Shown: positions 26,193-61,872 of the stretch, piece by piece
How positions within the stretch are numbered: the first letter of the stretch is position 1
Layout: the number at the start of each line of letters is the position of its first letter
Assembly: GCF_000300235.2 (NCBI RefSeq)
Contig: NZ_CP004388.1
Coordinates: forward strand, 2,275,501 to 2,339,500
Direction of reading: 5' to 3'
Length of the DNA stretch: 64,000 nucleotides
Origin: Thalassospira xiamenensis M-5 = DSM 17429
Lineage (GTDB): Bacteria; Pseudomonadota; Alphaproteobacteria; Rhodospirillales; Thalassospiraceae
Notes under the pieces: model-generated
Databases searched by the model: none
What the model saw: only the letters and a program-made list of their open reading frames with translations
Told to the model about the DNA's origin: nothing
Program-made: the position numbers and the translations under genes

Positions 26193-27701
26193 TCAACCTT
26201 TGTCGACGCGCCGCGGCAAAGCAATCGTGACCTCCAACCCACGTCGGGGCAGATTGCGTAATCGTATCGTCCCGTCATGGGCATCGATGACCGTTTTTAC
26301 AATCGACAGACCAAGGCCGCTGCCACCGGTGGTGCGTGCGCGTGATCCTTCTACACGGAAGAACGGCAGAAAGACATCCTCCTGATGTTCCGCGGCGATA
26401 CCCGGTCCTTCGTCCCGAATGGACACCAGAACCGTATCGGCCGTCGCATCCAGACTGACATAAGCGCGATAGCCATATTTCAGCGCATTCTCGATCAGAT
26501 TGGTGAAGGCACGTTTTAATGTTCCGGGTCGGCAGGTCAGACGGATGCTGCGCTTGTCACCAAACGAATGCGCCTCGTCCCCGCCGCCAAATACGGTGTG
26601 AACCGAACTGAAACGAAGCGGCTGCGGTCCCTCGAAACTTACCGGACGGCCAAGATCGGCATAATCGTCACAAATCGCTTCGAGAACCGATGTGAAGTCA
26701 ACTGTGCGCTCTTCTTCCTTGCTAATCCAGTCACCAAGGAAATCGAGTGCATCGTTGAGAAGCCCGTCCATTTCATCAAGATCGCGCAACACGGTTTCGC
26801 GCAATTCTTCATTTTCGATAAATTCTGCACGCAGGCGCAGGCGCGTGCTGGGCGTGCGCAAATCGTGTGAAATTGCGGCCAGCATACGGGTTCTGTCACC
26901 CAGCATCCGTGAAATCCGTTCTCGCAATCCATTATATGCCGCGGCCATTGACCGGGCTTCGGTCGGGCCGCGCTCCTCCACCGGTGGGCCTTCAACTTCA
27001 TCCCCCTGGCGAATGATCGCCTCGGTCAAATTCTTGAAGGGACCGGCCAGAAGATCGGCCAAAGCAGCAAACACCGCCAACACGGCAACAACCCCGACCA
27101 GAAAGATCAGAAAAACCATGGATGGCGATGCATAGTCGGACCACAGCACCGGATGAGACAGCAGCATTCGCATGCCGGATGGCAACATGATTTCAACGCG
27201 AGCCTCAAGTCCCTGACGCGCTATTTCGCGCGATAGGCCGGCAAAAAACAGACTGGGATTTTCGGCGGTTTCAATCAGGTCGCGCTGTTCCGCACCAAGA
27301 CGCCCGCGCCGAAAATGCACCTTTACCGATGTCGGCCAGCCCGTATCGGCCAGACGTGCGGGCATTGCGATATGTTGTGCCGGGCGCGAAAATAACAGAA
27401 TGGTACCGATATCGTCAGATGGCAGAACACGAACAGAAAGCCCGTCACGCGCGGCTATATCAACGATATTTCCCTGTAACTCCGGACTTTCGGCAATCAG
27501 GATCAATTCGCGAATGGTAAAGCCCAGAGTATAGGCTCGGCTGATCCGCTCGCTCCGTTCGATGATGTATTTCGATGCGATTGAACTGATGCCCGCGATG
27601 ATGACACCGCCGACCATCATGATCATAAAGATGCGTCCGCCTAGCGTGCGGGGCTTGAATCGCCGCATATATTCGGAAAACGCACCAATCTGAACTGCCA
27701 T
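26193..27701 (-). CDS. Membrane sensor histidine kinase, candidate GtrS-like sugar sensor
   Basis: 502 residues. The first transmembrane helix is near residues 22-42 and a periplasmic domain of about 145 residues follows. A second helix spans about residues 193-216 (VFLIFLVGVVAVLAVFAALA), then a HAMP linker and the HisKA domain with His279 in LAAISHDLRTPSTRLRLRAEF. The HATPase domain has RDEGPGIA and GGSGLGLSIVKTV. The response regulator gene lies immediately upstream (11 bp). The pair converges on a glucose-type ABC operon, as GltR-GtrS is linked to gts genes in Pseudomonas. Sugar sensing is therefore plausible but inferred from position. Confidence 0.88.
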   Translation of the reverse strand: MAVQIGAFSEYMRRFKPRTLGGRIFMIMMVGGVIIAGISSIASKYIIERSERISRAYTLGFTIRELILIAESPELQGNIVDIAARDGLSVRVLPSDDIGTILLFSRPAQHIAMPARLADTGWPTSVKVHFRRGRLGAEQRDLIETAENPSLFFAGLSREIARQGLEARVEIMLPSGMRMLLSHPVLWSDYASPSMVFLIFLVGVVAVLAVFAALADLLAGPFKNLTEAIIRQGDEVEGPPVEERGPTEARSMAAAYNGLRERISRMLGDRTRMLAAISHDLRTPSTRLRLRAEFIENEELRETVLRDLDEMDGLLNDALDFLGDWISKEEERTVDFTSVLEAICDDYADLGRPVSFEGPQPLRFSSVHTVFGGGDEAHSFGDKRSIRLTCRPGTLKRAFTNLIENALKYGYRAYVSLDATADTVLVSIRDEGPGIAAEHQEDVFLPFFRVEGSRARTTGGSGLGLSIVKTVIDAHDGTIRLRNLPRRGLEVTIALPRRVDKG

Positions 27702-27712
27702 CGATCGAATTC

Positions 27713-28447
<735 letters not shown>

Positions 28448-28619: not shown

Positions 28620-30218
28620 CTATTTCAGGTCATAAACCTTGGTGCTTCCCGATACTTCGGATGCGACGATCAACATTGCATTGCCCGTCGGGCTGTTTTT
28701 GGCATCAACAAACAGCATCCCTTCCGGGGCAAGTTCACCCGCGGTGTCGGCTTCCGGGCTTCCGGAATATCGACGATCAGAATGATATGTCACGAATTGC
28801 GGGTTAACCGGATTGGTCAGATCATAGACCATAAACCCGCCCTGACGTTCCAGACCGATGAAAGCATAAGGCGTGCCATTGACATAACCCGATGCCAGAC
28901 CTTCGGGTTCTGGCCCCTTGTCATCGGAACGATTATCGCGGCTATAGTTTTCGGTATCCGAGGCATTGAAAACATTGCTGTAATTCGCTGCCATGAACTG
29001 TTCAAATTGATCACCACTGTCAAAGACCATCTTGCCACCGGCATCAAGGACCGAGAACGACCGGGCGCCATAGCTATAAATCACATCGAAATCACCATCG
29101 CCGTCAATGTCGCCCTGTGCCTTGGTGGTTTTAAGGCGGCCCAGGTTTTCATCCTTTTGCAGGTTTGCTGCATTCGGGAATGCTACCGGATCAAGGGTCA
29201 ACTTGCCGACGCGGGTTTCCTCGCTATAGCCATCATAATCGCGGGAATCGCCTTCGTTCGCGATCAGCACCCAGGTTTTGCCATCGATTTCAATCGTATC
29301 AATGGTGTCGGGCATATACATCCCCATCACCGGCCAGGTGCGGATATTGATCTTGCCGTCCTTGTCGCTGGCATCAAACGCATTGACCGAATGGTCCTTG
29401 AACCCAAGACCGGCAACACGGATCACGCTGGCGGTTGCAATATCAAGGATCGCAACAGCGTTATTTTCCTGAAGCGACACATAGGCCGTTTTACTGTCTT
29501 TCGACACGGCGATATATTCCGGCTCAACATCCTGTGCGACACTTGACGTGCCCGGGTTCGATACCCGCATGCCGTATGGAAGCGTCGCATCATTCAAAAA
29601 GGCGAAATCAACGTTACGAACATCCGCATCCGTTAACTTGGCCACATCACCCGATACCGGAATGATCGAAACGCTGCCTTCCGGATCATTGTCAAACGCA
29701 TCATTTGGTTCACCTTCATTGGCAACCAAAACATATTTACCATCCGGGGTAAATTTGATCATATCGGGCAAGGCGCCCACAGTAACGGCTGCGATAAAAT
29801 CACCATTGGTGGTAAAGAACACAGCTTTGCCAGATGCCTGTTTATCTTTATTTTCAACAGCAACGGCCACAACGCCATCGTGAACAGCAACGCTGTTGGC
29901 GGCTTTGCCCCAATTCGAAAGATCAAGCGCCCCGATTTTACTGATTTCATTTGGGTTCGACATATCAAGAATGTCGATGGCCTTATCCCCACCATTCACA
30001 ACAAAAATACGCTTGGTCACCGGATCAAATGCCGGAATTTCAGCCGCACTTTCATCAAACACGCCGGTGCGATATTCGCCCATTGAAAGGATCGAAAGCG
30101 GTTTGGCCGCCGGTGTTGCCGTATCAAGCCCCATCGCAACGTTCTTTGACGTCGCCGCTGTACCACAAGCCCCAAGAAGCACAGACATCGCAACAGTCGC
30201 CATTAATGAATAACGCAT
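28620..30218 (-). CDS. Choice-of-anchor I-type beta-propeller lipoprotein
   Basis: 532 residues from the ATG at 30218, which has AGGGGG upstream; the frame from 30266 would hide the signal peptide. A lipoprotein signal ends in VLLGACG (lipobox LGAC). The mature protein is built of repeated blade-like segments (DKAIDILDMSNPNEISK, GKYVLVANEGEPNDAF, LIANEGDSRDYDGYSEETRV, DGDFDVIYSYGARSFSVLD). The anchor-I family is usually of unknown role and is sometimes annotated as alkaline phosphatase. A three-repeat Pho box upstream suggests induction by phosphate starvation, which would suit a surface phosphatase or phosphate-ester hydrolase. No direct catalytic evidence is visible. Confidence 0.85.
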   Translation of the reverse strand: MRYSLMATVAMSVLLGACGTAATSKNVAMGLDTATPAAKPLSILSMGEYRTGVFDESAAEIPAFDPVTKRIFVVNGGDKAIDILDMSNPNEISKIGALDLSNWGKAANSVAVHDGVVAVAVENKDKQASGKAVFFTTNGDFIAAVTVGALPDMIKFTPDGKYVLVANEGEPNDAFDNDPEGSVSIIPVSGDVAKLTDADVRNVDFAFLNDATLPYGMRVSNPGTSSVAQDVEPEYIAVSKDSKTAYVSLQENNAVAILDIATASVIRVAGLGFKDHSVNAFDASDKDGKINIRTWPVMGMYMPDTIDTIEIDGKTWVLIANEGDSRDYDGYSEETRVGKLTLDPVAFPNAANLQKDENLGRLKTTKAQGDIDGDGDFDVIYSYGARSFSVLDAGGKMVFDSGDQFEQFMAANYSNVFNASDTENYSRDNRSDDKGPEPEGLASGYVNGTPYAFIGLERQGGFMVYDLTNPVNPQFVTYHSDRRYSGSPEADTAGELAPEGMLFVDAKNSPTGNAMLIVASEVSGSTKVYDLK

Positions 30219-30269
30219 AGTTCCCCCTGAAAACTGAATTAACCGTGGCAGACAACCTGCAAACAAGCC

Positions 30270-30298
30270 GTAACAGTTTGATGACGACGCCGTGACAG
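30270..30298 (-). promoter_or_regulatory. Pho box (PhoB binding site) upstream of the anchor-I gene
   Basis: On the minus strand CTGTCAC, TCGTCAT and CTGTTAC start exactly 11 bp apart (30298, 30287, 30276), each separated by four bases. This is the 11-bp direct-repeat layout of PhoB sites (consensus half-site CTGTCAT). The box lies about 50-80 bp before the ATG at 30218. The divergent flavoprotein gene starts 94 bp on the other side. Confidence 0.8.
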
Positions 30299-30391
30299 TT
30301 TCATAAATTTCCTGAACCCCGCTATGCTCTGAACAGCCACAATCAACCTAAAGCAATAACCGTTCACGAAAATCAGTTGGAAACAGCAAGA

Positions 30392-31417
30392 ATGGCCACG
30401 ATCAATATCGCCGTGATCGGTGCGGGCATGGCTGGCCTTAAGGCAGCATCGACCCTGCATGGCATTGGCATCAATGTAACGGTCTTTGAAAAAAGCCACG
30501 GCACAGGCGGGCGGCTTGCGACCCGCCGAACCGAATTTGGCAATTTCAACCATGGCGCCCAATATGTGACGGCACGTGATCCGGCATTCCGTGCCTTCCT
30601 GCGCCATGCCGCAAGCCAAAATTCAGCGCGCGACTGGCGGCCCAACCTGTATCACGGCCAGCAAGCCCAAAGACAACAGACGCCACGCCCGATTGCGGAT
30701 GGCAACACCGCCGCCGACATTTGGTATCAGGGCGCGCCACTAATGAACAAGCTGGTCACGCCTCTTCTGACCTCATTTGAAATTCGCACCCGTCACCACA
30801 TCAATCGCATTGAACCACATGGCCCCCGTGAATTTATCCTGCATAATAATCTTGGTCAGGAATTTGGTCCTTTTGACGGTGTAATCGCAACTGCACCGGC
30901 CCCTCAAGCCGCCGAACTGTTACAGCCCTTAAGCCCGCGGTTTGATGTCATCAATAACGTTAAAATTGCTCCCTGCTGGTCAGCAATGATCGCATTTGCC
31001 AACCCTTTACCCACGGCATTTGACGCCATGGTCCATCCTGACCCTGCCATCAGTTGGGCCGCGCGAAGCGACAATAATAATAATCTGCCCCACAGACCAT
31101 CACCGGATCTTTGGGTTTTGCACGCCACCACAGAATGGTCCCGTGACAATCTGGAAGACGACAACGAACGTGTCGCATCGCGCTTGCTGGAAAAATTTCG
31201 CGATATATGTGGCAGCCGACTTCCCGAAATCATATCAATCGACGCCCATCGCTGGCGATATGCCCGAACGGAAACACCGCTTGGCCAAAGCCATTTAACC
31301 GGGATGAAGGGTCGAATAATTGCCGCAGGTGACTGGTGCCTTGGCGCACGGGTCGAAGCCGCATGGCGCAGCGGAAAATGCGCGGCACATGCCATGATCG
31401 AAACTCTGACCAGTTGA
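30392..31417 (+). CDS. FAD/NAD(P)-dependent amine oxidase-like protein (renalase-like)
   Basis: 341 residues from the ATG at 30392 (MATINIAVIGAGMAGL); five codons upstream are excluded. A classic FAD-binding motif GAGMAGLKAAS is followed by VFEKSHGTGGRLATRRTEFGNFNHGAQYVTA, a pattern of bacterial renalase-like and small FAD amine oxidases. The C-terminal FAD contact is IIAAGDWCLGARVEAAWRSGKCAA. Such proteins are soluble oxidoreductases, often of unknown substrate. It is monocistronic and divergent from the Pho-box gene. Confidence 0.82.
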   Translation: MATINIAVIGAGMAGLKAASTLHGIGINVTVFEKSHGTGGRLATRRTEFGNFNHGAQYVTARDPAFRAFLRHAASQNSARDWRPNLYHGQQAQRQQTPRPIADGNTAADIWYQGAPLMNKLVTPLLTSFEIRTRHHINRIEPHGPREFILHNNLGQEFGPFDGVIATAPAPQAAELLQPLSPRFDVINNVKIAPCWSAMIAFANPLPTAFDAMVHPDPAISWAARSDNNNNLPHRPSPDLWVLHATTEWSRDNLEDDNERVASRLLEKFRDICGSRLPEIISIDAHRWRYARTETPLGQSHLTGMKGRIIAAGDWCLGARVEAAWRSGKCAAHAMIETLTS

Positions 31418-60498: not shown

Positions 60499-61872
60499 GT
60501 GACGCATGATAACCCCAAAACCGGCCATAACCGGGAATCCCGCCTGTTTTATCAAAGCCGTTCGCGCCGGCCGCTGATCGACCGCGCCAAGGGCGTCTAT
60601 ATGTGGGATGTCGATGGCAAACGCTATATCGACGCTTCCAGCGGTGCGATGGTCAGCAATATCGGCCATAGCGACCCACGCGTGATTGCCGCAATGAATG
60701 CGCAGCTTGAAAAGGCCAGTTTCGCCTATCGCCTGCATTTTGAAAATGATGCGGCCGAAAATCTGGCATTCCGCCTTGCCGAACGCGCACCGGGCGATCT
60801 TGAACGGGTATTTTTTGTCTCCGGCGGGTCCGAAGCTGTCGAAAGCTGCATCAAGCTTGCCCGTCAATATGCCCTGGCAAAGGGGCAAGCCCAACGAACC
60901 AAGATCATTTCGCGTTTCCCCAGCTATCACGGCTCAACCCTTGGTGCGCTTGCCATCACCGGCTATACGCCGATGCATGCGCCCTTCGCCCCGATGATGG
61001 TGGACCAACCCAAAATCCCCGCCCCGACCTGCTATCTGGATCGCGATGATCTGAGTAATCATGAACGCGGCCTGAAATACGCCAACATGCTAGAATCCGA
61101 AATACTCAAACAGGGCCCTGAAACCGTTCTTGGTTTCATCATGGAACCGGTTGGCGGGGCTGCGACCGGCGCACTGGTTGCGCCTGACAGCTACTATGCC
61201 CGTATCCGCGAAATCTGTGATCAATACGGCATTCTTCTGATCTATGACGAGGTCATGACAGGTGCCGGGCGCACTGGCAAATATTTTGCCGCCGAACATT
61301 GGGGCATCACACCCGATATTCTGGCCGTGTCAAAGGGGCTGGCGGCGGGGTATGCCCCGCTGGGGGCGATGATTGCACCTGATCGCATTGTCGGACCGGT
61401 TCTTGATCATGGCGGGTTTATTCACGGTTATACCTATGCCGGAAATCCGATGGCCTGTGCGGCGGGCAACGCGGTTCTTGATGTGATTGATGAAGACAAC
61501 CTTCTGGAAAATGCGACCCAAAGCGGGGCGGCATTGAAGGCCGAACTTGTCAAACTTGCCGATGAATTTCCGATCATCGGCGATGTGCGTGGCCTTGGAT
61601 TGCTGCTTGCGGTCGAACTGGTCAAAGGCCGCGAAACCATGGAACCGATTGATCCCAAACACCTTGCGGCTGCCCGCCTTGTGGACATTGCCTATGACAA
61701 GGGCCTGATCATTTACTGGCGTCGCACCCGCGGCGGTTATCGCGGTGATCATGTGATGGTCTGCCCGCCCATGACGATCACACCCGATCAGTTTGACGAC
61801 ATCCTCATTCCGTTGCGCGCCGCCCTTGGCGACCTTCAGGACGAACTCACCCGTGCCGGAGCCTTCGCATGA
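60499..61872 (+). CDS. Class III PLP aminotransferase of the BKACE operon
   Basis: 457 residues from a GTG at 60499 (GGAG about 11 bases upstream; a GTG at 60487 is in frame too). Class III fold: FVSGGSEAVESCIKLARQYAL, PSYHGSTLGALAITGYTPMH, LLIYDEVMTGAGRTGKYF and the PLP lysine in AVSKGLAAGYAPLGAM. Family members transaminate omega-amino or beta-amino groups. Directly followed by a BKACE, it may create the beta-keto acid that BKACE cleaves. TGA overlaps the next ATG (ATGA). Confidence 0.9.
   Translation: MTHDNPKTGHNRESRLFYQSRSRRPLIDRAKGVYMWDVDGKRYIDASSGAMVSNIGHSDPRVIAAMNAQLEKASFAYRLHFENDAAENLAFRLAERAPGDLERVFFVSGGSEAVESCIKLARQYALAKGQAQRTKIISRFPSYHGSTLGALAITGYTPMHAPFAPMMVDQPKIPAPTCYLDRDDLSNHERGLKYANMLESEILKQGPETVLGFIMEPVGGAATGALVAPDSYYARIREICDQYGILLIYDEVMTGAGRTGKYFAAEHWGITPDILAVSKGLAAGYAPLGAMIAPDRIVGPVLDHGGFIHGYTYAGNPMACAAGNAVLDVIDEDNLLENATQSGAALKAELVKLADEFPIIGDVRGLGLLLAVELVKGRETMEPIDPKHLAAARLVDIAYDKGLIIYWRRTRGGYRGDHVMVCPPMTITPDQFDDILIPLRAALGDLQDELTRAGAFA

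Follow-up and report, generated by a model that had tools for sequence, protein, structure and literature searches.

A conserved Pho box precedes a choice-of-anchor I beta-propeller lipoprotein gene in Thalassospira xiamenensis and points to a probable phosphate-starvation phosphatase

The gene for a choice-of-anchor I beta-propeller lipoprotein in Thalassospira xiamenensis M-5 is preceded by a Pho box that is kept wherever the gene is kept in the genus, and the reading that we favour is that it encodes a PhoB-activated outer-membrane lipoprotein, a phosphatase of the PhoA-aty kind that is probably Ca-dependent (rough probability of this explanation as a whole, 0.72). Pho control of the gene appears close to certain from the comparisons of upstream regions given below, and the assignment of the product as a phosphatase of the PhoA-aty kind, which is argued by analogy with its relatives, is probable. 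The stretch of DNA analysed (64,000 nucleotides, henceforth the window) comes from a genome of 4.77 Mb (C1:2275501-2339500). In the mechanism that we propose, PhoB would bind tandem 11-bp repeats at 30270-30298 of the window when phosphate is scarce, perhaps as two head-to-tail dimers if a degenerate fourth unit counts, and the bound PhoB would activate a minus-strand promoter with its -10 element lying 10 bp downstream of the repeats. The product would be a lipoprotein sited in the outer membrane, in which conserved Glu, Asp and Arg residues of the beta-propeller may form a metal-dependent (probably Ca2+) site that hydrolyses phosphoesters, and the protein would therefore free phosphate from dissolved organic phosphorus. 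It would represent a heterotrophic-bacterial member of the PhoA-aty group, related to cyanophage phoA genes.

Read on the minus strand from 30298 to 30270, the Pho box consists of CTGTCAC (unit 1, 30292..30298), TCGTCAT (unit 2, 30281..30287) and CTGTTAC (unit 3, 30270..30276), with GGCG and CAAA as spacers; the three PhoB-like heptamers described by the sequence-only reading, with their exact 11-bp spacing, are thus borne out, and 51 bp separate them from the ATG of the propeller gene at 30218. The gene is present in 25 of 29 Thalassospira genomes, and every one of the regions upstream of it preserves the heptamer cores: unit 1 has its TCA and unit 2 its TCAT in 25/25 (with G in 22/25 and 24/25, respectively), and unit 3 has its G, T, A and C in 25/25, with its middle T in 24/25. 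Mean column identity ranges from 0.84 to 0.90 across the units, whereas the 4 bp that part unit 1 from unit 2 drift (0.44); the second spacer, before unit 3, remains A-rich. Exactly one 11-bp period upstream of the box, the consensus TATTTAT-GAAA is nearly invariant (0.94). Its first seven letters, AATTTAT in the window (30303..30309, minus strand; five of the seven columns 25/25, one 23/25 and one 17/25), may be a degenerate fourth unit, and given this near-invariance the footprint looks like four 11-bp units, which would correspond to two PhoB dimers. On the other side, 10 bp after unit 3, the C, A and last T of a CAnnnT element (CAGGTT in the window, 30254..30259, minus strand) are found in 25/25 genomes; this is where the -10 element of E. 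coli Pho promoters sits, and it is the likely -10 element here. The likely ribosome-binding site is GGGGG at 30223..30227 on the same strand.

The gene downstream of the box (28620..30218, minus strand, stop codon included) encodes 532 amino acids, and the sequence-only reading had called its product an anchor-I beta-propeller lipoprotein. Each element of that description was confirmed: the protein scores 571 bits against NF038117 (cut-off 300) and 452 bits against PF22494 (cut-off 32) and is the single choice-of-anchor I copy in the genome; it carries a lipobox, LGAC, at residues 15-18 (30165..30176, minus strand); and its AlphaFold model (mean pLDDT 88.1, pTM 0.88) is a beta-propeller. By regular expression only, a lipobox occurs in 22/25 Thalassospira orthologues and in 21/41 other proteobacterial loci with a short N-terminus. 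The Lol +2 rule governs outer-membrane sorting of lipoproteins, and since the residue after the Cys is Gly, the protein would be located in the outer membrane. Its best-matching named relatives are Thalassospira, and the closest, with 98 percent identity at the protein level, is that of T. alkalitolerans. Within the genus, the metagenome bin UBA1131 (L049, L050, L092) holds its choice-of-anchor I gene in two pieces of 73 and 89 percent identity; the gene may be broken, or the assembly may be a mosaic.

The best PDB matches in a fold search with the AlphaFold model are generic propellers, e.g. WD40 proteins and YncE, both seven-bladed. PhoX, which is PhoB-regulated, is absent among the fold matches listed, and PDB sequence searches gave partial propeller similarity only, with no PhoX chain at E<=1. 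Generic propellers were likewise returned from a viral structure library, cyanophage PhoA being absent among the best 50 listed. An alignment of 57 selected members, drawn from several phyla, has 45 invariant columns, of which 20 are E, D or R; the invariant set includes P151-D152, E232-P-E234, P303-D304, E437-P-E439 and E457-R458, and this acidic core fits a metal site better than it fits a scaffold. The phytase-like family PF13449 has one match in the genome, and it lies elsewhere and not in this gene. Five plasmid proteins (H18-H22) show weak similarity of 24-33 percent, and four of the five are annotated 'esterase-like activity of phytase family', which suggests a deeper link between the phytase-like propeller family and choice-of-anchor I.

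When 50,697 phage records were searched at the protein level, 9 matched; they represent 6 distinct Synechococcus phages (three being duplicated), and in all 9 the gene bears the annotation phoA or alkaline phosphatase (25-26 percent identity by tblastn, E 3e-16 to 1e-14); a Microcystis member of the family matches the same 9 records at E 6e-9 to 2e-7. In the three records that were opened, phoA begins within 13 nt after pstS or overlaps its end. The three phage proteins (S-SM1, S-SM2 and S-BM1) pass the Pfam choice_anch_I model with 61-70 bits (cut-off 32), and in a 10-sequence alignment that includes them 19 of the 20 invariant E, D and R residues are kept, the exception being R326. They are thus like the protein described here in Pfam family and in this residue set, and differ from it in being only 32-33 percent identical (multiple alignment), in their length of 418-451 aa, in missing several insertions and in adjoining pstS. 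Two of the phage proteins, those of S-SM1 and S-SM2, were scanned against PHROGs and fall in phrog_23282, which is listed there as of unknown function. One review (PMC6359870) credits S-SM1 and S-SM2 with an alkaline phosphatase gene and, citing Zeng and Chisholm, states that expression of phage pstS and phoA rises when the host is P-limited.

Among characterized phosphatases, PhoA-aty, as represented by Synechococcus PCC 7942 phoA and by dinoflagellate and Emiliania huxleyi enzymes, shares control by phosphate starvation with the gene described here, for which such control is predicted. The recombinant, purified PhoA-aty of Amphidinium is reported to have phosphatase activity that is restored by Ca, Mg and Mn and not by Zn (PMC6723241), and in E. 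huxleyi PhoA-aty transcripts are reported to rise under phosphate depletion, with activity in lysates restored by Zn2+ as well as Ca (PMC6156274). The D/E and Pro-Asp motifs given for PhoA-aty (PMC4548154) are matched here by description only, in the invariant P151-D152 and P303-D304. The protein here differs from PhoA-aty in being a compact lipoprotein of 532 aa and in having a PhoB-type box. For Prochlorococcus MED4, the putative PhoA is described as distantly homologous to the atypical PhoA that freshwater Synechococcus carries (PMC11098088). The S. elongatus control genome passes NF038117, the passing gene not being identified as phoA. Membership of phage phoA in one family with the Thalassospira protein was tested by sequence, and algal PhoA-aty would belong to it as well, phage phoA itself then being presumably of the PhoA-aty kind; Ca2+-dependent hydrolysis of phosphate esters by the protein is what its relatives would lead one to expect. 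PhoX resembles it in being a beta-propeller phosphatase, one described as needing calcium and iron (PMC11098088); it has no chain among the sequence matches at E<=1 and is not among the fold matches listed, a ranked list that could have missed it. Psip1 is also a propeller alkaline phosphatase, from low-phosphate picocyanobacteria, and is set apart by its description as a discrete family (PMC11098088). Animal MSP130 has a relative called alkaline phosphatase-like (PMC2909932) and a function reported as unclear (PMC6368272), and the PhoA-aty tree is described as taking in marine metazoans (PMC4548154).

The alternative that survives best accepts the PhoB-controlled box as real and holds that the protein is non-enzymatic, acting at the cell surface in metal or phosphate-ester binding, in adhesion or as a scaffold, as could also hold for animal MSP130. 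Propellers often serve binding alone, and a phosphatase is absent among the fold matches listed. Sea-urchin Sp-ApL, which is very similar to MSP130-related 2, is moreover described as having only limited similarity to alkaline phosphatase (PMC2909932). Against this, the share of E, D and R among the invariant columns (20/45) is more typical of an active site than of a scaffold, cyanophage phoA, which adjoins pstS, belongs to the Pfam family, and recombinant PhoA-aty is reported to be active (PMC6723241). We therefore regard a purely binding role as unlikely, and a phosphatase of the PhoA-aty kind as the better reading.

We next consider the gene that the box serves and the regulator that binds it, for which the surroundings of the box offer one rival each. 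Divergently from the propeller gene runs an FAD-dependent amine-oxidase-like gene (30392..31417, plus strand; Pfam PF01593), and directly downstream lie genes for an OmpR-type response regulator (27713..28429, minus strand) and an EnvZ-like histidine kinase (26193..27701, minus strand; EnvZ model 178 bits, under the 415-bit cut-off). The best NCBIfam model for the regulator is OmpR and not PhoB: its 203-aa frame (27713-28324) scores 234 bits against the OmpR model, under the 331-bit cut-off, and the match that extends the gene to 28429 scores 193 bits against the PhoB model (cut-off 296). Three of the four Thalassospira genomes that lack the propeller gene (L259, L260 and L261) retain the FAD gene, and in these three a response-regulator frame like the OmpR-type one of the window, as judged by eye from its translation, adjoins it; no Pho box was found on either strand beside the FAD gene in the three (p 0.14 to 0.96). 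The fourth has no FAD match, which leaves 28 readable genomes for comparing box and gene, and since the two are present or absent together in all 28, we assign the box to the propeller gene. The box does lie in the region common to the two divergent genes, with 93 bp between it and the FAD ATG, as it would if it drove the FAD gene or both genes; however, the orientation of the heptamers and the conserved -10-like element point toward the propeller gene, and with the FAD gene standing boxless in those three genomes we rejected it as the target and consider such a role very improbable. Slightly less probable still is binding of the site by the neighbouring OmpR-type regulator in place of PhoB: the OmpR/EnvZ-like pair is directly downstream and OmpR-family proteins bind tandem repeats, but the repeats at 30270-30298 follow the PhoB consensus, a similar box stands before relatives with other neighbours, and the candidate was rejected on the three genomes that keep the regulator gene and lack the box.

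PhoB control of the propeller gene also has to be set against chance. Scored against three copies of CTGTCAT, the Pho box reaches 16/21 and is the top 29-bp place on both strands of the 64-kb window; in dinucleotide shuffles of the window (n=100) the mean number of places scoring 16/21 was 0.08, and 7 of the 100 held at least one. A looser, site-fitted pattern gave 1 match in the window versus 0.02 expected and was present in 2/100 shuffles, and with up to 3 mismatches a fitted pattern gave 23 matches in the whole genome versus 8 for a reversed control pattern, the Pho box having 0 mismatches and every other match 3. The letters alone are only moderately unlikely by chance, and because the search patterns had been fitted to the site, the case from them is suggestive. 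It is conservation within Thalassospira that we take as decisive for the reality of the Pho box. When overlapping blocks of the upstream region were ranked, 14 of 145 (the box itself counted) were at least as conserved as the 29-bp box alone, and the 40-bp footprint was more striking, with 3 of 135. A chance likeness to a Pho box, which the equal strict-consensus matches in 7 of the 100 shuffled windows could be taken to favour, is hardly credible beside 25/25 conservation and absence together with the gene. These same two observations, a conserved PhoB-type site and its loss along with the gene, support the earlier proposal that the box ties the gene to phosphate starvation.

The genome holds one regulator above the cut-off of the PhoB model TIGR02154 (333 bits versus 296), at C1:3891117, and the strongest PF12849 (PstS-type) match, at C1:3896332, is 4.5 kb away from it. 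No strong Pho box was found in the same scan before the two PF12849 genes of the genome, so that either genuine sites escape the scoring or Pho control is uneven here; by eye, upstream of a PstS-type gene (L162, 2300-2800, minus strand), the succession TTGTCAC-ATAA-CGTTAAC-AAAA-GTGACGC can be read as a weak candidate box, unranked by the scan. Other two- or three-unit boxes were looked at as regulon candidates, 10 of 53 loci in detail, and C1:694274 alone stood in an obvious phosphate-related context. There the Pho-like box CTGTCAA-TATA-CTGTTAC (locus L143, C1:692774-695791) is flanked on one side by a calcineurin-type metallophosphoesterase gene and a glycosyltransferase gene (truncated where the locus ends), and on the other by a diacylglycerol-kinase-family gene. 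We take this arrangement to resemble PlcP-type lipid remodelling under phosphate starvation, and L143 is likely such a locus. In the window itself, repeats like CTGTCATGACCTCGTCAT occur at 61233-61272 on the minus strand, within a long reading frame, and are probably due to chance.

Pho-type boxes recur before relatives outside Thalassospira. In a first pass, PhoB-type boxes at p<=0.05 were found at 8/10 proteobacterial and 5/51 other loci, and SphR-type boxes at 9/22 cyanobacterial loci, yet also at 10/39 others; the SphR scan being unspecific, it was redone with an antisense control. The fuller proteobacterial scan covered 540 bp upstream of the domain at 61 loci outside Thalassospira (L188 and L192 were dropped because contig ends cut them, three Thalassospira loci were omitted, and L193 and L194 are two parts of one gene), a short N-terminus being defined as a domain start no more than 500 nt from an in-frame stop, a class that includes some long front-domain proteins (e.g. 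L174). At p<=0.01 a three-unit PhoB-type box was found in the sense direction at 19/49 short-N-terminus loci and in the antisense direction at 2/49 (Fisher p 4e-5, which is optimistic because loci of one genus are not independent), leaving 30 of the 49 in which this level was not reached; at p<=0.05 the counts were 29 and 6. At the 12 loci where a long stretch of coding sequence precedes the domain, the counts at p<=0.01 were 1 sense and 0 antisense. The scan weights were set after the site had been seen, and the antisense and long-N-terminus loci serve as guard controls. In cyanobacteria, SphR-type boxes at p<=0.005 numbered 13/28 sense and 2/28 antisense, with 0/23 at long-N-terminus loci, and at p<=0.05 they numbered 20/28 and 5/28. 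The cyanobacterial consensus is quoted as PyTTAAPyPyT/A in PMC10976474, a source that also cautions against relying on Pho boxes predicted in phage genomes. In a Spirochaetes metagenome bin (L084), CTTAACCAACATTTAACCAGTAATTTATC upstream of the gene is closer to the cyanobacterial than to the PhoB type of Pho box, and in two Acidobacteria (L077, L078) PhoB-like repeats (TTGTCAT) stand about 110 bp upstream of the match, with neighbouring frames alike in size and order. A survey of the neighbours of relatives (78 proteins at 14 loci, from 91 proteins at 16 loci minus two Thalassospira loci with 12 proteins and L101:9001-9543) showed no recurring phosphate gene among the best 25 of 104 Pfam and 25 of 327 NCBIfam families listed. 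The expectation that the box could help to assign a function has gained support, the tie to phosphate now extending through other proteobacteria, cyanobacteria and the cyanophage phoA genes.

Choice-of-anchor I genes (E<=1e-40) were found in 37/398 sampled genomes of the phylum of the window and in 69/292 of the phylum of Phormidium, and in two phyla this NCBI family, which has no stated function, appears to be tied to phosphate starvation. The literature searched, which was limited in scope, contained no mention of 'choice-of-anchor I' and none of choice-of-anchor together with phosphate or the Pho regulon, and the accessions are absent from the PhoA-aty papers in that set. That the family as a whole consists of ancient phosphate-starvation phosphatases, Pho-controlled in several phyla through differently spelled boxes, is a possibility that we hold only tentatively; if it were true family-wide, the MSP130 biomineralisation proteins of animals would derive from a phosphate-scavenging enzyme. 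The compact 532-aa member described here would suit a first structure of the family, PDB searches having given partial propeller similarity. Overall, the phosphate-type boxes and the kinship with cyanophage phoA turn an anonymous NCBI label into a testable phosphatase assignment. The enzyme kind itself is already known, and the main value of the finding lies in a function for a widespread label; with this assignment, heterotrophic marine bacteria would join the organisms that use the PhoA-aty type of enzyme.
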